DNA of 28,781 nucleotides from a virus (IMGVR_UViG_3300006929_000076:1-28781); one strand, 5' to 3'; counted from the stretch's first letter, positions 7,955 to 26,479 are shown. Program-made: numbers and translations. The notes: generated by a model from the letters alone, not told the origin.

Positions 7955-8270
7955 GGCAAAAGGTCGCAGATTACAGCAATGGTTTCGTGACCTTCTTATA
8001 GAAAAATTAGAAGTCCATCCAGAGGATATTGAGAGCCGTTCTATGGGTGCAGGCGGCGAAGATTTAATCATGGCTAGAGCTGCAAGAGAAAAATTTCCCT
8101 ATTCTATCGAATGTAAGAACCAAGAAAGCGTCAATATTTGGAAATCTTACGAACAAGCACAAGAAAATTCTGGTAATTATGAACCAATTGTGGTTTTAAA
8201 ACGTAATAATACTAAACCTTTAGTGTTAGTTGACGCAGATTATTTTGTAAAACTACATAATAAATCCTAA
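7935..8270 (+). CDS. PD-(D/E)XK nuclease, Holliday junction resolvase-like
   Basis: 111 residues. A GRRLQQWFRDLL helix opens the domain, then SMGAGGEDLI carries D43 and SIECKNQ carries E59-x-K61, matching a compact PD-(D/E)XK fold. Tiny nucleases of this type in marine phages are commonly annotated as resolvase-like endonucleases acting on branched DNA during recombination or packaging. Specific substrate is not visible. Start at 7935 overlaps the zinc-ribbon gene; the stop is followed by 46 nt without a gene, then the late promoter region. Confidence 0.65.
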   Translation: MKTQSAKAKGRRLQQWFRDLLIEKLEVHPEDIESRSMGAGGEDLIMARAAREKFPYSIECKNQESVNIWKSYEQAQENSGNYEPIVVLKRNNTKPLVLVDADYFVKLHNKS

Positions 8271-8284
8271 TATATCCCAAAAAT

Positions 8285-8292
8285 TATAAATA
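8285..8292 (+). promoter_or_regulatory. T4-type late promoter of the curli-cyclase operon
   Basis: Perfect TATAAATA match at 8285-8292, no -35 box, followed by a ribosome binding site AGGGGAG (8304-8310) 6 nt before the ATG at 8317. T4-like phages recognise TATAAATA with gp55/gp33/gp45; a gp33-like gene is present in this window. Confidence 0.6.
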
Positions 8293-8316
8293 TATAGTAT
8301 ATAAGGGGAGTGTCCT

Positions 8317-8595
8317 ATGGAAGCATTTAAGTTAATTGCTGACCTAGGCTTCTCTATCGCAGCTGTGTTTGGCGGTGGGTTCTTTATTATTATGCTACTG
8401 AAATACATTCTTGAGTCTGTAGTCAATAAGGCTCAAGGTTTGAATGGTATGATTAGTGCATTGGATAATAGAGTCAAAACTATTAATAATGAAATTGTGC
8501 GACTTGATGCTTTGATATGCCATGCTTTGGGTGTTAAACCAGATACCCGAAGATTGAGTGCAGCAGATGGTAAAGAAGATGCTAGGAAAGACTGA
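8317..8595 (+). CDS. Membrane/coiled-coil protein, first gene of the curli block
   Basis: 92 residues. One N-terminal membrane helix (about 12-38, SIAAVFGGGFFIIMLL) is followed by a coiled-coil with the repeating pattern LDNRVKTINNEIVRLDALI, and a charged tail. It is similar in layout and in its coiled-coil core to the next gene, so the two are likely paralogues. UviB/BhlA-type holins have such a layout, but position first in an export operon also suggests an inner-membrane accessory role. It ends with a 1-nt overlap onto the next start. Confidence 0.6.
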   Translation: MEAFKLIADLGFSIAAVFGGGFFIIMLLKYILESVVNKAQGLNGMISALDNRVKTINNEIVRLDALICHALGVKPDTRRLSAADGKEDARKD

Positions 8596-8930
8596 TGAAT
8601 GAATTTGTTAACGCAGTAAATCAGTATGGTGTGCCAACCGTTACAGCTGTGGGTATGGCATACTTTATATTTTACATATGGAAATATGTTACTAAGACAA
8701 TTTTGCCATCTTTAAATGAAGCAAGTGGTACATTGGTCGCACTTATAGATCGAATACGAATGTTAGATAATGACATGATACGATTGGACCAAAAGATCAA
8801 TACGATAATTGAAATTCAAGATCAACAAAATGACCCCTTTGAGAAGGCACAACAACAAAGAGATGCACAACAAGATAAAAGGATAGATCGAAATTCTCAA
8901 ACGATAGAAAAAATGAAAGGCAAAAAATGA
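8595..8930 (+). CDS. Membrane/coiled-coil protein, paralogue of preceding gene
   Basis: 111 residues. One membrane helix (about 12-32, TAVGMAYFIFYIWKYV) is followed by LIDRIRMLDNDMIRLDQKI, closely paralleling LDNRVKTINNEIVRLDALI in its neighbour, and then a Gln/Lys-rich hydrophilic tail. Tandem duplication followed by divergence is inferred. Function unknown; a membrane complex feeding the export system, or a holin-like pair, are both possible. It overlaps the csgF-like start by 4 nt. Confidence 0.6.
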   Translation: MNEFVNAVNQYGVPTVTAVGMAYFIFYIWKYVTKTILPSLNEASGTLVALIDRIRMLDNDMIRLDQKINTIIEIQDQQNDPFEKAQQQRDAQQDKRIDRNSQTIEKMKGKK

Positions 8931-9481
8931 GCAAGAATTTTTTGAATTTAAAAACAGGGCATCATGCTTCAGATGAATATTTCAAACACATGCCTATCTG
9001 GAATGATAGTGATATTCTAAAGACGTTTCTGTTTGGCTTGGGTGTTGGTGCTTTTTTGTTTTGGGTCGTAACACTTGTCACTTCAGTTTATGCTGCTGAC
9101 CTTACTCATACATGGAAGTCACCTGCCTTTAGTGGCACTGGTTATAGCCAACATGTTCTTACTATTGAGAACCAAGAGTTCTCTAGAACAAAAACTATTA
9201 AAGAAAAAAAAGAGGCAGCAGAAAGACAAGCAGCAAGAGATGCCGCAAACACAAACTTATCAAAGTTTATGAAAAATGTGGAGTCAAGAATTTACGCTCA
9301 ACTGTCGAAGCAGTTGGTAGATAGTATGTTTGGCGAATCTGCTTCCGAAACCGGCACAGTTACTTTTGAGGGAACAACGATAAGCTATGTCAAAAGTAGT
9401 GACACGGTAGATTTAACAATAGTGAGTCCAGATGGTAGCACGACTAATATTACCGTTCCTGTTGGCGACTTTACTTTCTAG
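8927..9481 (+). CDS. csgF: CsgF-like curli assembly protein
   Basis: 184 residues. A polar N-terminal extension (1-31) precedes a hydrophobic export segment ending SVYA-AD, a plausible signal peptidase site. The mature part starts as a CsgF does: SPAFSGTGY (compare the NPNFGG region of E. coli CsgF), an NLSKFMKNVESRIY helix, then the C-terminal strands TGTVTFEGTTISYV, VDLTIVSPDGSTTNITVP and a final DF. In E. coli CsgF caps CsgG outside the cell and links it to the nucleator. An internal ATG at 8990 would shorten the extension. Identity rests on pattern plus the CsgG neighbour, overlapped by 50 nt. Confidence 0.75.
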   Translation: MSKNFLNLKTGHHASDEYFKHMPIWNDSDILKTFLFGLGVGAFLFWVVTLVTSVYAADLTHTWKSPAFSGTGYSQHVLTIENQEFSRTKTIKEKKEAAERQAARDAANTNLSKFMKNVESRIYAQLSKQLVDSMFGESASETGTVTFEGTTISYVKSSDTVDLTIVSPDGSTTNITVPVGDFTF

Positions 9482-10220
9482 TTGTCAGAGTATCCCAGAG
9501 GATGCTCCTGTAACTAGCACAAAACCGCTAGTCAATGAACTATACAACTTGCAACCCCCTGTTCGTAAGGTTCCTATAGCTGTATATAAATTTAAAGATT
9601 TAACAGGACAAAGAAAATCAAGTTCATCACTTGCACTATTAAGTAGTGCGGTGACACAGGGTGGAGATATATGGTTGATCCAAGCCCTCAAGAAAGCAGG
9701 AAAGGGAGAGTGGTTTCGAGTTGTAGAAAGAATGGAATTAGAAAACCTAGTAAAAGAAAGACAAATCATACGAAGCACAAGACAAAAATACGATGGAGAT
9801 AAAGCAGAAAAAATTAAACCCCTGTTGTTCGCAGGCGTAATACTTACAGGGGGAATAGTTGGGTATGACACTAATACGAGTACAGGTGGGCTGGGCGTAA
9901 GGTATCTTGGTATTGGTGCGTCTGATGAATATCGCAAGGATATGGTAACAGTAGGCTTGCGTCTTATATCAACTCAAACAGGTGAAGTGTTACTAGCAGT
10001 CAGTTCTCAAAAAACTATTTTGAGTACAAAACTGTCAGCTACTGTATTCAAATTTTTGGATATGGGAACAAAGTTATTAGAAACAGAGGCAGGGATGACA
10101 GACAATGAGTCTACAACCTATGCTGTAAGAAAAGCAATTGAACAAGCAGTTCTAGAGATAATTAAAGAGGGCGAGAAGAAAAAATTATGGGAATATAAAC
10201 AAAAGGAGAAAATCAAATGA
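9432..10220 (+). CDS. csgG: CsgG curli secretion channel
   Basis: 262 residues. Lipoprotein signal with lipobox LLSSC (Cys18). The body carries the family signature almost intact: IAVYKFKDLTGQRK, SSAVTQGGD, WFRVVERMELENLVKERQ, LLFAGVILTGGIVGYDTN, RYLGIGASDEYRKD, TGEVLL, and YAVRKAIEQAV. In E. coli nine copies form a 36-stranded outer-membrane pore through which curlins are exported unfolded. The constriction and strand regions look complete, so I expect a functional channel. It starts within csgF (50 nt overlap) and ends with an ATGA overlap onto the curlin gene. Confidence 0.95.
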   Translation: MVARLILPFLLATLLSSCQSIPEDAPVTSTKPLVNELYNLQPPVRKVPIAVYKFKDLTGQRKSSSSLALLSSAVTQGGDIWLIQALKKAGKGEWFRVVERMELENLVKERQIIRSTRQKYDGDKAEKIKPLLFAGVILTGGIVGYDTNTSTGGLGVRYLGIGASDEYRKDMVTVGLRLISTQTGEVLLAVSSQKTILSTKLSATVFKFLDMGTKLLETEAGMTDNESTTYAVRKAIEQAVLEIIKEGEKKKLWEYKQKEKIK

Positions 10221-10900
10221 GAACGAGCATACTTACCGTACTCGCTTTTATGATTATGAGCAGTGTGAGTTATGCGAGTGACGTATATATCACTCAGTCA
10301 GGTGCAAGCTTGACTGCAAACATCAATCAAGATGGTCAGACAAATAAGGTGGGTAATGACACTACCGATTTTACAATGTCTGGCGACAGTCAAACCTATG
10401 ATATAGACCAAGTTGGTAATACCAATACGATCACTGGTTCGGTTACAGGTGATGATCAAAATTTGGTAGTAAACCAAACTGGCTCTAGTAATACTGCAGC
10501 TGTTAACGTGGGTACTAATTCTTCAGCATCAGACAACGATATTCGTCTGACACATACTGGTGACAGCAACACAACAACTGTTAACGTGGGTACAACTGCT
10601 GCATCAGGTGATGCAGATATTGACTTGACGGTTACAGGTAGTAGTAATACAGTGACCATCAATGAAAACAGTACTGCAACAATGTTGAACACTGATAAGA
10701 AAGTGACAAGCGTAACATTAACAGGTTCTAGCAATACTGTTACTTCAACACATACAGGTGCTGGAGATCACGATACCACATTGGCACATACTGGTTCTTC
10801 TGGAACTTTTAGTATTACTCAAGGTGGTGCTCATGATTCTGTAGTTGATATGACAACAAGTGGAGCAAGTCATAGTGTTACGATTACTGTTGACGATTAG
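10217..10900 (+). CDS. Curlin-repeat amyloid protein 1
   Basis: 227 residues. Sec signal peptide (cut after SYA-S, about 20) then VYITQSGASL and successive repeats of about 20-25 residues with Q/T-x-G-x-(S/T)-N-T, e.g. INQDGQTNKV, DQVGNTNTITG, NQTGSSNTAAV, LTVTGSSNTVTI, LTGSSNTVTS. This matches CsgA/CsgB-type beta-solenoid repeats, but the Gln of canonical curlins is often replaced by Thr. It is likely the substrate of CsgG. The protein is rich in Thr, Ser, Asp and has no Cys. It shares a start pattern (VYITQSG) with the second curlin gene in the same operon. Confidence 0.85.
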   Translation: MRTSILTVLAFMIMSSVSYASDVYITQSGASLTANINQDGQTNKVGNDTTDFTMSGDSQTYDIDQVGNTNTITGSVTGDDQNLVVNQTGSSNTAAVNVGTNSSASDNDIRLTHTGDSNTTTVNVGTTAASGDADIDLTVTGSSNTVTINENSTATMLNTDKKVTSVTLTGSSNTVTSTHTGAGDHDTTLAHTGSSGTFSITQGGAHDSVVDMTTSGASHSVTITVDD

Positions 10901-11939
10901 TCTCATTCTCTTTAGTACCAGTGCTTATGGTGCTATTGGGAATGTGGTTAAACATAAAGGCAACGCTTCTGTTGAGAGGTCGGGTGAAAGGACTTCTTTG
11001 CAAAGGGGTTCTGGTATTGAGTTCAAGGACAATGTGCGAACTGGCAAAGGTAATGTTGGTATCACTTTTGTTGATAAGACAAATGTGGCTGTCAGCGCAC
11101 ATAGTTCCTTGGTAATTGATGAGTTTGTATATGATCCTAATTCAAGGACAGGATCGAAGTTGGTTATGAATATTGCTCTTGGCACAGTGAGATATGCCAG
11201 TGGTAATATTGCAAAGTTGAATAACCAGAACGTGGATATTCGCACACCGACAGCAAGGATTGGTGTGTTGGGAACAGCGTTCAGTATGACGGTAGATGAG
11301 ATTGGTAAGTCACTGATTATCCTACTGCCCAACAAGGACGGATCGGTAGGCAAGATATCAGTGGAGACTGAAGCTGGACAGGTAATTATGAACCAAGCAT
11401 TTCAGTCTACAATAGTTGGTACAGGTGAGAGCAATCCTACCAAGCCTGTGATACTAGACCTTTCGTTAGATCAGATTAATAACCTGTTGATAATTAGACC
11501 ACCAAAGAAAAAACTCATTAAACTTCTCAGTGATTCAAAGAAGGGTAAGAATATACTTGATATCGATTTTCTTGAGTTTGCAGCGCTAGATAAAAATGAG
11601 TTAGAGGAAGACTTGTTTGAGTTTAACGAGTTGGATATTAATGATTTAGATGTAGAGCTGTTAGGTAACATACTTGATCAGATTGCTGCTGCTCTAGCAC
11701 AATCAGAAATGGTTGATGGTCGCACTAGTGGATTTAACAGAACAACACAAGTCAATACGATAGTGGATGGTAATATGACACGCATAATACGAAGAGTAGG
11801 AAACAGTACGATAGACCTAGATTTAATTAACGATTACGGATACACAATAAATTTAACACAGGGTGGAATACCTGTGCCGGAGATAACAACAAGAGATGAA
11901 GACGCTTCTAATACTATTACTATCTATCAGTCTGAGTAG
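10860..11939 (+). CDS. FecR-domain periplasmic protein
   Basis: 359 residues from GTG 10860 (GTG 10875 is an alternative). A signal peptide (LLLTISLILFSTSAYG) precedes a FecR domain: GNVVKHKGNASV, GSGIEFKDNVRTGKGNVGITFVDKTNVAV, then GTVRYASGNIAKLN and the family core TPTARIGVLGTAFSM. FecR domains sense or bind ligands in the periplasm and often lie beside CHASE2-cyclase genes. Residues 200-280 are acidic/Lys-rich linker; the end (LTQGGIPVPE, NTITIYQSE) resembles curlin repeats. No transmembrane helix besides the signal is visible. Overlaps curlin gene 1 by 41 nt and curlin gene 2 by 44 nt. Confidence 0.8.
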   Translation: MEQVIVLRLLLTISLILFSTSAYGAIGNVVKHKGNASVERSGERTSLQRGSGIEFKDNVRTGKGNVGITFVDKTNVAVSAHSSLVIDEFVYDPNSRTGSKLVMNIALGTVRYASGNIAKLNNQNVDIRTPTARIGVLGTAFSMTVDEIGKSLIILLPNKDGSVGKISVETEAGQVIMNQAFQSTIVGTGESNPTKPVILDLSLDQINNLLIIRPPKKKLIKLLSDSKKGKNILDIDFLEFAALDKNELEEDLFEFNELDINDLDVELLGNILDQIAAALAQSEMVDGRTSGFNRTTQVNTIVDGNMTRIIRRVGNSTIDLDLINDYGYTINLTQGGIPVPEITTRDEDASNTITIYQSE

Positions 11940-12618
11940 TGTAGCATATGCCAATGAGGTGTATATTACACAGTCTGGCGATGATTTAGATGTAAACATA
12001 TCACAAGATGGTCGAAACAATACCATTACCAAAAACATATGGACTGTGCCATATGATTGGGAAGGTGATGATAATACATTTGATTTGAGACAAAAGAACA
12101 CAAGAAACAATTCGTCAGATTCCAATTATCAAGGATTTCATATTGATGGGAATAATAACACTGTCAGAGTTGGACAGGGTTATGCAGATTATGGAAGTCT
12201 GGCTACAGCAGCAACTCAAGAATGGGACACAGATAATTGGGAAGGGGGTAATAATACAGCAATGATAGATATTCATGGTGATAATAATATTCTCAATATC
12301 GGACAGAGAAACGGAAGTCTAGGAAACTTTAATGGTCATGATGTAACCGCATATATATATGGTGACGATAATACAGCAAGGACAGTACAGGTACATGATG
12401 GAGCAAAGGATTTGACCTTAACACTTAATGGTGATGACCATACACTTTATGTAGAGCAAAGAAATACTGGTGCCCACAATGCAACAATTAGTTTAACAAA
12501 TGGCACTGATCCATATTCCTTTTCACTTTCACAAAATTCTACTACTGCTCAAAACTATTCAATGACAGGTACATGCTATACTAGTGGAGGCTGTTCAGTT
12601 TCAGTAACACAGGATTAA
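11896..12618 (+). CDS. Curlin-repeat amyloid protein 2
   Basis: 240 residues. Signal peptide (cut about AYA-NE) then VYITQSGDDLDVNISQDGRNN, parallel to the VYITQSG start of curlin 1. Repeats of the type GDDNTF, GNNNTVRVGQ, GDNNILNIGQRNG, GDDNTARTVQ, GDDHTLYVEQRN carry a G-(D/N)-(D/N)-N-T knuckle with terminal Gln, closer to canonical curlin motifs than those in curlin 1. Two cysteines near the end (CYTSGGC) may form a disulfide. It could be the nucleator or a minor subunit, with curlin 1 the major fibre, but the roles could be reversed. Confidence 0.8.
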   Translation: MKTLLILLLSISLSSVAYANEVYITQSGDDLDVNISQDGRNNTITKNIWTVPYDWEGDDNTFDLRQKNTRNNSSDSNYQGFHIDGNNNTVRVGQGYADYGSLATAATQEWDTDNWEGGNNTAMIDIHGDNNILNIGQRNGSLGNFNGHDVTAYIYGDDNTARTVQVHDGAKDLTLTLNGDDHTLYVEQRNTGAHNATISLTNGTDPYSFSLSQNSTTAQNYSMTGTCYTSGGCSVSVTQD

Positions 12619-12619
12619 T

Positions 12620-14671
12620 ATGAAAAAGTGGATTATATCATTATTTGTAATTTTATTATTGTGTGGGTTGCGTTTTGCAGACCCTTGGTTTCTGGATATG
12701 GTGCGGCTCAAAGCATTGGATCAACATCAACGTAATCAAGTATCCATGAACCTCTCTAACCTTGCTACAGTAGAGATCAATAACGAGACAATCAGAAAAC
12801 TAGGACAGTGGCCGTGGGATAGAAACAGGGTCGCAAACCAGATTATTAAGTTATATCAGGCTGGTGCTTCCATCGTGGTTGTTCCTATACTATTTGCAGA
12901 CCCAGACAGGTTTGGTAAAGATGCGGTCCTCGCAAGAATTCTCAAAAAAACACCAACAGTGATAGGACAGATACCCACTAATGACAAAAGTAATTCTGGT
13001 GTAGTGCGTGGAGTTGCTGCTATCGGATCAGACTGGCAACCGTGGGTATATCGATACACTGGTGTAGTCGGTCCCATTCCAGAATTAGCAAAGAGTGCCA
13101 ACGCAGTTGGTATGATGGTAATCGCACCAGAGAGGGATGGCGTAGTTCGACGTATGCCTTTGGTCGTTGCATCAGACGGAAAACTATACCCATCTATCAG
13201 TATGGAAATTCTACGCATAGCTGCTGGTGATGTATCGTTTCAGATGAAGACAGGTATTGCTGGTGTGGAGAAACTACGCATACCAAAATACAAGATGATC
13301 GACACAGATGCCAACGGTAATATCTGGTTGGACTTTAAGTGGAAAACACCAGTTCATCCACTGCATGAAAAACTACCAGACCTAAAAGGTAAGATCGTGA
13401 TACTGAGCATGACTGCATCTGGTCTTGAGAGTGTAGTGTCCACACCTGTTGGCAATATACATTCGCATGACCTTATTGCTGCATCACTTGCTACCATGAT
13501 GACAGGTCGCAATATCACCAGACCGTTCTGGACAGACCTCGCAGAACTCGCAGTCAGTGGTGTAGGAGCTCTTATTCTAACAGTGGTAGTATTGACATTG
13601 GCATGGTATTTTGGGGCAGTATTACTACCCCTTTTCCTTGGTGGTACATTCTATGGTTCGTCTTATCTGTTCACTGAGTATAGTTATCTGGTAGATTGGT
13701 CCTATCCTGTCCTTACTATGTTTGTGGTCTGGGCTATCGCTGCGTTTCTACGGTTCATGGAAGAATACAAACAGAAGATGGAGATCAAGAAACAGTTTGC
13801 AGGGTACGCTTCACCTACAGTAGTTCGATTGTTACAGGAGAATCCTGCACTAATCAAAGATGGTATGAAGAAAGAGATCAGCATTTGTTTCTCTGACCTT
13901 CGTGGGTTCACACCATTGGGTGAGAGTTTCGGTGATGATGTCAAGGGTCTTACTGAAATTATGAATGGATACATGGATGCAATTACGCAGCCTATTCTAG
14001 ACTCTGATGGTATGGTTATCAAATATATCGGTGATGCTTCTATGCACATACACAATGCACCGATTGACGATGATGACCATCCAAGAAGTGCAGTAAAAAC
14101 TGGACTACAAATGTTGAGTGCAGTGGAGAAGTTTAATGATAAAATCGTTTCTGAGGGCCGGCCTCCAGTTGGTATGGGTGCTGGTATTAATACTGGGCTT
14201 GGTTATCTTGGAGAGATGGGAAGTACCAAACGTCATTCTTACGATGTTCTAGGTGATGCAGTATCAACTGCTGCTCGTATCGAGTCCAAGTGTAAAGAGT
14301 ATGGATGTCTACTGCTGGTGGGAGAGTCAACCTATGATGTGACCAAGGATGACTTCTTCTATCTCAAAGTCGATGAATTGGCAGTCAAGGGTAAGACCGT
14401 AGGTATTCGTATTTACACTGTGCTATCTGATAATGAATGGGCACTTAAAAATACAAACTGGTTTGCTGCTCAACAACAACATGAGAAGATGCATGAGTAT
14501 TATAAGATGCAGCAGTTCGATAATGCAATTAGACTATGTAATGATCTAAGTATAGAGTTTGACGGAAAAATGAAGAACTACTACACCATGTGGATTGAGC
14601 GTTGTGAATTCATGAAGACCCAACCTCTAGAGGAGGATTGGAACGGAGTATTCATTGCAACGACAAAATAG
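12620..14671 (+). CDS. CHASE2-class III adenylate cyclase
   Basis: 683 residues. TM at 4-20; periplasmic CHASE2 sensor about 21-300 (GQWPWDRNRVANQI and GMMVIAPERDGVVRRMPLV); three helices about 310-375; then a class III cyclase domain about 400-590. Metal Asp D426 (FSDLRGFT) and D472 (KYIGDA), base-selecting K468 and D542 (SYDVLGDA) favour ATP, and transition-state R553 is present, but the usual Asn is Ser549. A helical C-terminal region follows. It would turn an envelope signal into cAMP in the host cytoplasm. It is last in the curli operon, 1 nt after curlin 2. Confidence 0.9.
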   Translation: MKKWIISLFVILLLCGLRFADPWFLDMVRLKALDQHQRNQVSMNLSNLATVEINNETIRKLGQWPWDRNRVANQIIKLYQAGASIVVVPILFADPDRFGKDAVLARILKKTPTVIGQIPTNDKSNSGVVRGVAAIGSDWQPWVYRYTGVVGPIPELAKSANAVGMMVIAPERDGVVRRMPLVVASDGKLYPSISMEILRIAAGDVSFQMKTGIAGVEKLRIPKYKMIDTDANGNIWLDFKWKTPVHPLHEKLPDLKGKIVILSMTASGLESVVSTPVGNIHSHDLIAASLATMMTGRNITRPFWTDLAELAVSGVGALILTVVVLTLAWYFGAVLLPLFLGGTFYGSSYLFTEYSYLVDWSYPVLTMFVVWAIAAFLRFMEEYKQKMEIKKQFAGYASPTVVRLLQENPALIKDGMKKEISICFSDLRGFTPLGESFGDDVKGLTEIMNGYMDAITQPILDSDGMVIKYIGDASMHIHNAPIDDDDHPRSAVKTGLQMLSAVEKFNDKIVSEGRPPVGMGAGINTGLGYLGEMGSTKRHSYDVLGDAVSTAARIESKCKEYGCLLLVGESTYDVTKDDFFYLKVDELAVKGKTVGIRIYTVLSDNEWALKNTNWFAAQQQHEKMHEYYKMQQFDNAIRLCNDLSIEFDGKMKNYYTMWIERCEFMKTQPLEEDWNGVFIATTK

Positions 14672-14674
14672 GCC

Positions 14675-14703
14675 TTGACAAAGTTACAATTTTCATGTAT
14701 TAT
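14675..14703 (+). promoter_or_regulatory. Sigma70-like promoter
   Basis: TTGACA at 14675-14680, a 17-nt spacer, and TATTAT at 14698-14703. Expected start about 14710, giving a leader of about 31 nt to the ATG at 14741. It separates the late curli block from the following short genes. GATAAATA at 14728-14735, one base from the late consensus, lies in the same leader. Confidence 0.65.
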
Positions 14704-18789: not shown

Positions 18790-19283
18790 TGGCAGTCGAT
18801 ACATATACACCTTTGTTTTCTGAAATCTTAACAAAGGTATCAAAATTGAAAACAAAAAAAGAGAAAGTTGCACATCTGAGAAAATATAATTCAGATGCAC
18901 TTCGCATGGTAATCAAGTCTTCATTTGATCCAAAAATCAAATGGTCCTTGCCAGAAGGGGAAGTTCCTTTTATCCCTAATGACGCACCAGAAGGAACAGA
19001 ACATACAGACCTTGCATATGAAGCAAGAAAGCTTTATCATTTTATTCAAGGTGGTGATGGAGCGTTGCATCAGAACAAACGTGAGAGCATGTTCGTTCAG
19101 ATGTTAGAAGGTTTGCATCCAGACGAAGCAGAAATTCTTATTGCTGCAAAAGATAAGTCATTGCACCGTAAGTATAAAGGTTTATCTGAAAACGTGGTAA
19201 AGGAAGCATTTGATTGGGATGATAACTTTATGGTTGTAGAACACGATCAATACCCACAGGCGCCGGGCGCTGCCAACGGATGA
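18789..19283 (+). CDS. DUF6433-like protein
   Basis: 164 residues. Pattern LTKVSKLKTKKEKVAHLRKY, LRMVIKSSFDPKIKW, LPEGEVPFIPNDAPEG, MLEGLHPDEAEILIAAKDK and VVKEAF matches the DUF6433 proteins I know from T4-like cyanophages and pelagiphages. Mostly helical, no catalytic motif seen. It shares one base with the rnh stop and overlaps guaC by 4 nt, so it is in the same message as RNase H and GMP reductase. Confidence 0.6.
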   Translation: MAVDTYTPLFSEILTKVSKLKTKKEKVAHLRKYNSDALRMVIKSSFDPKIKWSLPEGEVPFIPNDAPEGTEHTDLAYEARKLYHFIQGGDGALHQNKRESMFVQMLEGLHPDEAEILIAAKDKSLHRKYKGLSENVVKEAFDWDDNFMVVEHDQYPQAPGAANG

Positions 19284-20314
19284 TTATTCTAGATGATATC
19301 AAACTAGATTATTCAGATGTATTGATTCGTCCAAAACGGTCAACGCTTACTTCACGGTTTGATGTTGAAATGGAACGAGAATATACATTCTGTAACAGCA
19401 AAAAGAAATGGAAAGGTGTGCCAATTATTGCCAGTAACATGGACACTACAGGTACGTTTGAAATACATAATGTATTAAGTGAACATGCCATGATTACTTG
19501 TATCGCTCGTCATTATAATAAAAGTGGTATGGAATGGTCACAATCAAAAAATAAGAATAAGCTGTGTGTTATGTCTGGTATCTCTGATATTGAGATACGA
19601 GAGATAGTTGGTGTATCTACTACATTTCCTGATGTTGCTTTTGTCGGATTAGATGTTGCAAATGGCTATACAATTAATTTTGTTGAAGCTATAAAACGTC
19701 TAAGAAATGAATTGCCTAATGCAACTATTATTGCTGGAAATGTCGTAACTGGTGATATGACAACAGAACTTATTCTTGCTGGTGCTGATATCATCAAAGT
19801 GGGTGTCGGGCCCGGAAGCGTGTGTACTACTCGTATCAAGACAGGTATCGGGTATCCACAATTAAGTGCAGTTATGGAATGTGCAGATGCGGCACATGGT
19901 TTGGGTGGACATATCATTGCAGATGGTGGATGTACATCGTCTGGTGATATTGTCAAAGCGTTTGCTGGTGGTGCAGACTTTGTTATGCTTGGTGGTATGC
20001 TTGCTGGTCACGATGAGTGTGATGGTGAGCTAGTATTTGAGGATGACGTAGAAGAACCTGTAGGAATGTGTTTCTATGGTATGGCATCTCGTACAGCAAT
20101 GGACAAGCATGGTCACTCTAACAGAGAGTATCGTGGTGAGGAAGGTAAGACGGTAACTGTTCCTTATCGTGGTCCTGTAAAGAATACTGTTCAAGATATT
20201 TTGGGTGGTGTGCGTTCTGCTTGCACTTATGTTGGTGCGAGGAGACTAAAGGACTTGACAAAGTGTGCTACATTTGTTAGAGTCAATCATACGCATAATA
20301 GAGTATATGAATGA
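19280..20314 (+). CDS. guaC: GMP reductase
   Basis: 344 residues, close to E. coli GuaC (347). Signatures: DYSDVLIRPKRSTL, VPIIASNMDTTGTF, GNVVTGDMT, KVGVGPGSVCTTRIKTGIGYPQLSAV (catalytic Cys182), DGGCTSSGDI, GGADFVMLGGMLAG, and YRGEEGKTVTVPYRGPV. There is no CBS insert, which separates it from IMP dehydrogenase. It reduces GMP to IMP with NADPH, letting guanine nucleotides from degraded host RNA or DNA be redirected to adenine nucleotides. It is uncommon as a phage metabolic gene. Confidence 0.95.
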   Translation: MIILDDIKLDYSDVLIRPKRSTLTSRFDVEMEREYTFCNSKKKWKGVPIIASNMDTTGTFEIHNVLSEHAMITCIARHYNKSGMEWSQSKNKNKLCVMSGISDIEIREIVGVSTTFPDVAFVGLDVANGYTINFVEAIKRLRNELPNATIIAGNVVTGDMTTELILAGADIIKVGVGPGSVCTTRIKTGIGYPQLSAVMECADAAHGLGGHIIADGGCTSSGDIVKAFAGGADFVMLGGMLAGHDECDGELVFEDDVEEPVGMCFYGMASRTAMDKHGHSNREYRGEEGKTVTVPYRGPVKNTVQDILGGVRSACTYVGARRLKDLTKCATFVRVNHTHNRVYE

Positions 20315-25611: not shown

Positions 25612-26005
25612 TGTAACCAACAATATTCCCAAACAAACAGCGCCTGATAACAAAGTAAATGCTGTACACCTCATTAAAGATGAGGATAAGGAACCAATTA
25701 GTCCTAAAACACCTGATAAATTTTCTTTTGTCACGGTTCCAAAAGCTATAAGTTGTGCTCCGAATAACAAAATTCTAAAAAAACTTATGGAAGTGGAAGA
25801 AAAACCAATTGCATTATGGAAAGATGCTTTTCAAGGACATCAAGTTATGGTCTTTACAAATCAAAAAACAGGCACAACAACTATTCTAGAATATCCACCC
25901 TTGTTTGAAGGTGACTACGCATGTTTACTATCTATTGGTGTTGAAACTATATTATTACATAAGCCAGAGACACAAGGTATTAAAATAAAGTACTTGACAA
26001 ATTAG
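25562..26005 (+). CDS. Lipoprotein, unknown
   Basis: 147 residues from ATG 25562, which begins a clear lipoprotein signal MKHLISIMAVFLLMGC with lipobox LLMGC (Cys16); an in-frame codon at 25541 lies further up. GGAGAAA precedes it. A hydrophilic linker is followed by a beta-rich domain with two more cysteines. I do not recognise the family; it should be anchored in the periplasm or outer membrane. Its 5' end lies within the exonuclease gene (50 nt), another case of a signal peptide encoded inside an upstream gene. The tmRNA promoter begins inside its 3' end. Confidence 0.65.
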   Translation: MKHLISIMAVFLLMGCNVTNNIPKQTAPDNKVNAVHLIKDEDKEPISPKTPDKFSFVTVPKAISCAPNNKILKKLMEVEEKPIALWKDAFQGHQVMVFTNQKTGTTTILEYPPLFEGDYACLLSIGVETILLHKPETQGIKIKYLTN

Positions 26006-26024
26006 CTATAATGTGGTATAAATA
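25994..26024 (+). promoter_or_regulatory. tmRNA promoter combining sigma70-like and late elements
   Basis: TTGACA at 25994-25999, exactly 17 nt, then TATAAATA at 26017-26024. The -10 region is at once a TATAAA-type box and a perfect T4-type late promoter, so the gene may be transcribed both early and late. Confidence 0.65.
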
Positions 26025-26030
26025 TAATAC

Positions 26031-26092
26031 AATTCGATGATGTGGATTGAAAGTCGGACAGGACGGGGGTGCGATACCCCCCGCCTCCACCA
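26031..26092 (+). ncRNA. ssrA: Permuted tmRNA, acceptor piece
   Basis: Contains the 3' tRNA-like half: T-stem GGGGG (26065-26069), T-loop TGCGATA, CCCCC (26077-26081), then acceptor strand CGCCTCC (26082-26088), discriminator A and encoded CCA (26090-26092). CGCCTCC pairs over 7 bp with GGGGGCG at 26252-26258, including the G3-U70 wobble that alanyl-tRNA synthetase reads. AGTCGG (26052-26057) pairs with TCGACT (26267-26272) as helix 2. Acceptor lying before the coding part is the circularly permuted order of alphaproteobacteria. The 5' end is estimated from the promoter. Confidence 0.9.
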
Positions 26093-26133
26093 AAAGGAGA
26101 TTAGTGTGGAACAGATATTGTTAGGGGGTTGTG

Positions 26134-26250
26134 ATGAAGAACCCCTTAGTACGAAAGGTAAGTAAGTGGATGTTTAGAGCATATATCGTTTGGAGCATAT
26201 GTGCAGATATAACCTTACTTGCCGGGATAATATACCTAGTCTTTTTTTGA
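26134..26250 (+). CDS. 38-residue membrane peptide inside the tmRNA intervening segment
   Basis: ATG 26134 with AGGGGG 5 nt upstream; stop at 26248-26250, one base before the tmRNA coding piece. Basic start (MKNPLVRKVSKWMF) then a hydrophobic helix (IVWSICADITLLAGIIYLVFF). It lies entirely between the two tmRNA pieces, in sequence normally removed by processing. A 19-codon GTG ORF (26106-26165, AGGAGA upstream) overlaps it in another frame. It looks like a real small membrane protein, possibly holin-like, with no assigned function. Confidence 0.5.
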   Translation: MKNPLVRKVSKWMFRAYIVWSICADITLLAGIIYLVFF

Positions 26251-26251
26251 T

Positions 26252-26448
26252 GGGGGCGAAATAGGATCGACTGACGGTGAATAGAAAAACGGAGAGTTGT
26301 GGATTGGACGCCTCATAGTCCACTATAGTAAATGCAAACGATAACTTTGCATCTCAAGATTTCGCACTAGCTGCGTAATCGGATAGGGTTTCGGGGGTTT
26401 CCTAGTAACAGAATAACCCCCACTTTAAGGATTGCCACGTGGCGATTC
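26252..26448 (+). ncRNA. ssrA: Permuted tmRNA, coding piece
   Basis: Starts with GGGGGCG (acceptor 5' strand) and a D-loop-like AAATAGGA, then helix 2 and a pseudoknot region (GTGGA/TCCAC around 26299-26325). The tag reading frame follows at 26334-26378. Downstream are hairpins 26393-26399/26415-26421 and 26429-26436/26441-26448. The true 3' end is not visible; I stop at the last hairpin, since RBS and start of the next gene follow at 26464-26480. Confidence 0.85.
26334..26378 (+). other. tmRNA proteolysis tag reading frame
   Basis: Resume codon GCA at 26334, preceded by TAGTAAAT, encodes ANDNFASQDFALAA and TAA. The ANDN start is typical of alphaproteobacterial tags; ALAA is the ClpXP/ClpAP degron end. 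Ribosomes stalled on broken mRNAs would add this tag. Confidence 0.92.
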
Positions 26449-26479
26449 AAACTTTGTCATGATAAGGAGATATTAAATT

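Follow-up and report, generated by a model that had tools for sequence, protein, structure and literature searches.

Why should a phage encode the export of curli-type amyloid, and why should these genes be joined to those of a FecR-domain protein and a nucleotide cyclase? The question is raised by the IMG/VR record of a marine virus, IMGVR_UViG_3300006929_000076 (28,781 bases, called here the window), in which eight genes of the plus strand, at 8317–14671, abut or overlap in the order m1, m2 (paralogues with transmembrane (TM) and coiled-coil segments), csgF, csgG, curlin1, fecR, curlin2 and the gene for a CHASE2-class III cyclase. The reading favoured here, with the balance about even, is that a phage type VIII (curli) secretion cassette of published type has been combined with a FecR/CHASE2-cyclase pair, and that amyloid display would thus be linked to signalling. 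Taken separately, the secretion and fibre part, read from the predicted proteins, is likely, the coupling of FecR to CHASE2, argued by analogy, is poised midway, and any given ecological benefit is doubtful.

CsgG (9432–10220), the predicted lipoprotein pore of the outer membrane, matches PF03783 (2.5e-56) and the chains of E. coli CsgG structures (1.4e-43). Its lipobox, LLSSC, is coded across the csgF stop codon, where the two genes overlap. CsgF (8927–9481) features an N-terminal extension and a signal/TM segment, and has the Pfam match (PF10614, 4.8e-16) that a type VIII system calls for; a PDB sequence search with CsgF gave no convincing match. Curlin 2 (11896–12618) matches the curlin repeat Curlin_rpt (PF07012, 1.2e-8). 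The Pfam match of curlin 1 (10217–10900) is weak (0.0076) and under the cut-off; its family profile matches curlin-repeat structures (8c50, 2.4e-9; CsgA 8enq, 0.019), and AlphaFold models it as a regular repeat of beta strands (predicted local distance difference test score, pLDDT, 87; predicted template modelling score 0.82). Fold search with this model is unspecific, generic beta-helices ranking on top and the CsgA fibril appearing at E 1.3. By inspection, both curlins carry Sec signal peptides.

Two observations concern variation of these genes. Identity of curlin 2 to its relatives is bimodal (~90% or ~35% in L011, L012 and L025), while that of the neighbours is steady at 80–90%; curlin2 has been exchanged by recombination (dS 0.31–0.33, vs ~1 in most neighbour genes, in L011 and L025), and the bimodality would reflect an allele replaced not long ago, as in proteins exposed at the surface. 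In L029 (4812–4955) and L112 (near 13380) a small open reading frame (ORF) following the cyclase gene resembles only the N-terminal leader of window CsgF (48% over 44 aa in L029), which suggests that the leader may be common to another small membrane protein.

The gene fecR (10875–11939) lies between those of the curlins. It is more likely to start at the GTG at 10875, which aligns with the ATG of relatives, than at the GTG at 10860, the start given by the ORF caller. The product has a FecR domain (Pfam, 1.5e-6), found in all 28 members of the family, into which a signal-peptide-like N-terminal helix runs directly. A cytoplasmic anti-sigma domain is not present in window FecR, no other Pfam domain is common to the 28 members, and neither a sigma factor nor a TonB receptor was recognised adjoining fecR in a Pfam scan of window ORFs. 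In fold searches the N-terminal domain matches the cell-surface signalling domain (CSSD) of PupR (6ovk; Z 15.6, root mean square deviation 2.6, 136 aligned residues), and also the domain that anchors an ice-binding adhesin (5ix9; Z 7.7, profile E 0.0029). AlphaFold sets residues 290–359 apart as a separate beta domain (pLDDT ~77–88), preceded by a low-confidence linker.

The C-terminus of module FecRs is a strand of the type hydrophobic-x-hydrophobic-x-Q, which reads NTITIYQSE in the window. The same pattern closes 35/57 curlin2 and 16/57 curlin1 sequences, and none of the CsgF, CsgG, m1 or m2 proteins. Because curli-linked FecRs end in this curlin-like strand (34 of 39 distinct proteins, against 4/71 bacterial FecR frames away from curli, all four with a different sequence, VVVGQ), FecR probably touches the fibre, as far as sequence and structural model can tell. 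More tentative is the reading that FecR is here a fibre-contacting protein and not an iron regulator, in which a periplasmic FecR domain with a curlin-like tail would anchor or nucleate amyloid and report its state to the CHASE2 cyclase. If this were true, the phage would carry a device that monitors the amyloid it exports, and Caulobacteraceae would have a counterpart.

The cyclase (12620–14671) combines CHASE2 (PF05226, 9.5e-38), a TM region and a class III catalytic domain (Guanylate_cyc, PF00211, 7e-17). Residue roles are those generally assigned in class III cyclases. Both metal-binding Asp, the substrate Lys/Asp and the Arg are kept (FSDLRGFT, IKYIGD, SYDVLGD, AAR). Among 77 readable cyclases, 36, including that of the window, have a Ser-type catalytic half, and 41 an Asn-type one. 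The catalytic half has been swapped independently of CHASE2, identity between Melnitz and window proteins being 38% over the CHASE2 half and 85% over the catalytic one; the swapped domain corresponds to window 13820–14430, and was seen also in L031, L034 and L150. Purifying selection is strong on the Ser-type catalytic domain (omega 0.03–0.05), as on the whole cyclase (0.05–0.07).

The eight genes are probably one operon, transcribed late. Junctions consist, in order, of overlaps of 1, 4, 50, 4, 26–41 and 44 nucleotides (nt), and the single gap measures 1 nt. The late-type promoter element TATAAATA lies on the plus strand at 8285–8292, ahead of m1. The window holds 4 copies, vs 2.3 expected, which is at chance level, and the copy at 8285 is not significant alone; it was rejected as proof of a promoter, and relatives were tested in its place. 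Of 44 distinct regions preceding the first gene in relatives, 14 carry the element at a distance of at most 80 nt, where ~1.0 would be expected; ahead of internal genes of the operon it is hardly ever seen. Directly 3' of the cyclase stop codon, a sigma70-like promoter (14675–14703, plus strand; TTGACA-17-TATTAT, 11/12 match) fits a new transcription unit starting after the cyclase. The phage isolate closest to the window primase (54%) and RNase H (61%) is Methylophilales phage Melnitz, followed for the primase by Pelagibacter phages Mosig and HTVC008M; on these relationships the window phage is T4-like, of the Melnitz/pelagimyophage group. An earlier note, made from the sequence alone, had read a late, single-promoter operon of a T4-like phage related to pelagimyophages, with these eight genes in this order, the curli secretion genes, FecR and CHASE2-cyclase among them, and no gap larger than 1 nt. 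All of this is supported, late transcription as a probability, and the CsgG assignment by the E. coli structures as well.

The order is not an artefact of assembly. A join made during assembly, which the earlier note had allowed for, was rejected: two cultured phages, HTVC008M and Melnitz, have this order too, as do dozens of viral contigs, and it is kept across long contigs with CsgG identity down to ~50%. At least 553 viral stretches encode CsgG. A 1.5-kb 'Salmonella phage' record with a CsgG match (OR851715.1) is probably a host fragment. In pairwise comparisons with close relatives, dN/dS is 0.07–0.13 for csgG and mostly 0.14–0.23 for curlin1; phage NrdB, for comparison, gives 0.02–0.10.

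The gene set is already known. Clusters of CsgF and CsgG were reported in pelagimyophages by Zaragoza-Solas et al. 2020 (PMC7029224), and the full module by Wittmers et al. 2022 (PMC9599517) in podo- and myoviruses, in pelagiphages of two families; it is expressed in metatranscriptomes, and roles as superinfection barrier, in sibling capture or in import have been suggested (PMC9599517). Annotations for csgF, csgG, the two curlins, FecR and the cyclase are given in the GenBank record of Melnitz. The earlier note was right that curli-related clusters had been noted in pelagimyophages and that FecR stands beside CHASE2-cyclases in bacteria, and wrong that the combination had not been described. 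None of the papers searched joins phage, CHASE2 and CsgG. New here are the FecR tail, the relabelling of the histidine kinase slot, the Caulobacteraceae counterpart, the empty site, the cyclase forms and the scarcity of known cyclic AMP (cAMP) parts in Pelagibacterales.

The published order is HK(x1-2)-CsgF-CsgG-CsgA/B-FecR-CsgA/B-AC (HK, histidine kinase; AC, adenylate cyclase), the second CsgA/B and AC being often present (PMC9599517). The place of the kinase is occupied in the window by m1 (8317–8595) and m2 (8595–8930), small proteins of 92 and 111 aa with an N-terminal TM segment and a coiled coil, both assigned to phrog_18771. A histidine kinase domain is absent from window m1 and m2 (Pfam) and from 12 m1/m2 family members, and HATPase_c was not found in four module-bearing records (HTVC008M, Melnitz and two large viral contigs). 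The slot seems to hold no kinase in these phages, the label and not the gene being wrong; despite this, the window module stands as a pelagiphage type VIII secretion system (T8SS) module. Genes m1 and m2 are close companions of the curli module, at times downstream on the opposite strand. All 24 loci of at least 16 kb with m1/m2 hold a cyclase match, and 22 of them also CsgG. An obligate partnership with curli is ruled out by four loci (L268, L271, L272, L273) in which m1-m2 is followed, within reach, by no curli gene, strong as the linkage is. One of them, L273, is an empty site: it has the window order p7935-m1-m2-p14741-p15757-p16278, lacking exactly csgF to cyclase, and at 8001–9100 the homologue of window p14741 directly follows m1-m2. 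Since L273 keeps the flanking order without these genes, the csgF-to-cyclase cassette is, as judged from gene order, gained or lost as a block.

How might the module work? Late in infection, one transcript would give a CsgG-CsgF outer-membrane pore and two curlins; as homology suggests, these would leave the infected cell and assemble into amyloid on its surface. FecR, exported too, would expose its FecR domain to the periplasm; the beta domain at its C-terminus, judging from sequence and model, may contact, cap or nucleate the curlins. The periplasmic CHASE2 of the inner-membrane cyclase could read FecR or the state of export and switch cAMP synthesis, as the recurrent pairing of FecR with CHASE2-cyclases in bacteria would imply. 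The most likely benefit would be an altered, sticky surface of the infected cell, blocking rival phages or keeping neighbouring hosts near. A lytic phage installing amyloid export that its host lacks could alter the adhesion and aggregation of infected marine bacteria and their resistance to other phages, and SAR11 ranks with the most numerous cells on the planet. The FecR tail, the cyclase substitution, the empty-site relative and the Caulobacteraceae operon make the function of the module testable.

Several points weigh against this proposal. Secretion, amyloid and cAMP are predictions from gene content. Neither CsgE nor CsgC had a Pfam match among the ten ORFs scanned, in a window which is a fragment; alphaproteobacterial curli modules have been reported without CsgC, CsgD and CsgE (PMC9599517). 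The position weight matrix score of the FecR tail is biased upward, positions past the C-terminus being unscored, a bias from which the pattern counts are free. The transition-state Asn of the cyclase is replaced by Ser in the window (GDAVSTAAR). Cultured Melnitz displayed no clumping by cytogram or transmission electron microscopy (PMC9004378). On the host side, class I or III cyclases were found in 0/147 Pelagibacterales genomes, and a cNMP-binding domain in 10/147, in a long protein (an 870-aa frame in nearly all) which is not CRP-like. In these ten genomes (919–3264 in L259) the cNMP-binding domain is followed by an acyltransferase-like stretch. A receptor encoded by the phage was rejected, since HTVC008M and Melnitz genomes have no cNMP_binding or GAF domain. 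Known receptor domains are thus missing from nearly all of these hosts and from both complete phages, and for the cAMP modulation of host physiology proposed in the earlier note the best-documented hosts offer no recognised route.

The scarcity of receptors, in most Pelagibacterales as in the two complete module-bearing phages, would fit a cyclase acting by enzymatic drain or via an unidentified host cAMP receptor, independently of the fibre, and co-located with it by shared ancestry only; exchange of the catalytic domain separately from CHASE2 points the same way. Yet over large divergence the genes for FecR, cyclase and curli have not come apart, the cyclase keeps its CHASE2 half, and the tail of FecR is curlin-like, so that this explanation is unlikely. 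The CsgG-CsgF pore has alternatively been viewed, on the basis of gene context and a modelled pore in Melnitz, as repurposed into a gated pore or pinholin-like timer of lysis (PMC9004378), to which curlins, FecR and cyclase would be accessory. That model presumes no curlins, whereas two are encoded, under constraint, in the operons of the window, HTVC008M and Melnitz; besides, CsgG is an outer-membrane lipoprotein, and the syntenic relative devoid of the cassette implies that lysis does not, as a rule, require it. A lysis timer is thus improbable. Least probable is one of the proposals of PMC9599517, an ungated CsgG pore importing cofactors or siderophores with FecR as iron-responsive regulator, for which the lack of a CsgE gate in the Pfam scan, the name of FecR and an iron-poor ocean may be adduced, against a FecR with a signal-peptide-like start, a single shared Pfam domain, a curlin-like tail and no recognised sigma factor or TonB receptor next to its gene, and with the curlins left without a role.

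Other features reside elsewhere in the window. An alphaproteobacterial-type permuted (two-piece) transfer-messenger RNA gene is found at 25990–26469; in Melnitz, a permuted gene of this kind was published together with a glutamine riboswitch, which in the window is below threshold. An ORF at 19280–20314 resembles, by sequence inspection, IMP dehydrogenase/GMP reductase, and a similar ORF occurs in L155.

Among known systems, the pelagiphage T8SS module of T4-like phages and podoviruses of SAR11 and OM43 (PMC9599517; in part PMC7029224, PMC9004378) has the same genes in the same order as the window, which shows the published succession CsgF-CsgG-CsgA/B-FecR-CsgA/B-AC; it differs in that its 'HK' genes are no kinases in the window group. 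Exported FecR-domain proteins beside CHASE2 adenylate cyclases are clustered also in Campylobacterota (PMC9239204), where curli genes are missing and a phosphodiesterase and a tetratricopeptide repeat protein are present; in 18/73 bacterial FecR loci a CHASE2 cyclase adjoins, always within 4.4 kb. FecR/PupR anti-sigma factors of cell-surface signalling have the FecR-domain fold in common with window FecR, which in contrast has no cytoplasmic anti-sigma domain and features a C-terminal beta domain with a curlin-like end. Alphaproteobacterial curli operons share CsgF, CsgG and curlin-repeat subunits with the window. In the ordinary ones, FecR or a CHASE2-cyclase was found in 0/36 sampled (~9 kb on each side where the contig allows), and these were rejected as source of the pair. 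HK and adenylate cyclase are placed outside bacterial T8SS operons in PMC9599517; an exception, for FecR and cyclase, is made by two Caulobacteraceae metagenome-assembled genomes (Jr-25may17), in which csgF-csgG-curlin-curlin-fecR-CHASE2 cyclase operons (L035, 6013–12070; L036, 6086–12106) sit among bacterial-looking genes that differ between the two. These operons differ from that of the window in lacking m1/m2, in having both curlins ahead of fecR and in their bacterial neighbours; their FecR ends in INVTQD, a curlin-like tail as in the phage module. Their CsgG nests within the phage CsgG clade, beside T4-like viral contigs (99/96 support; midpoint rooting), and because of this placement a transfer between phage and bacterium, in either direction, is indicated by the tree.

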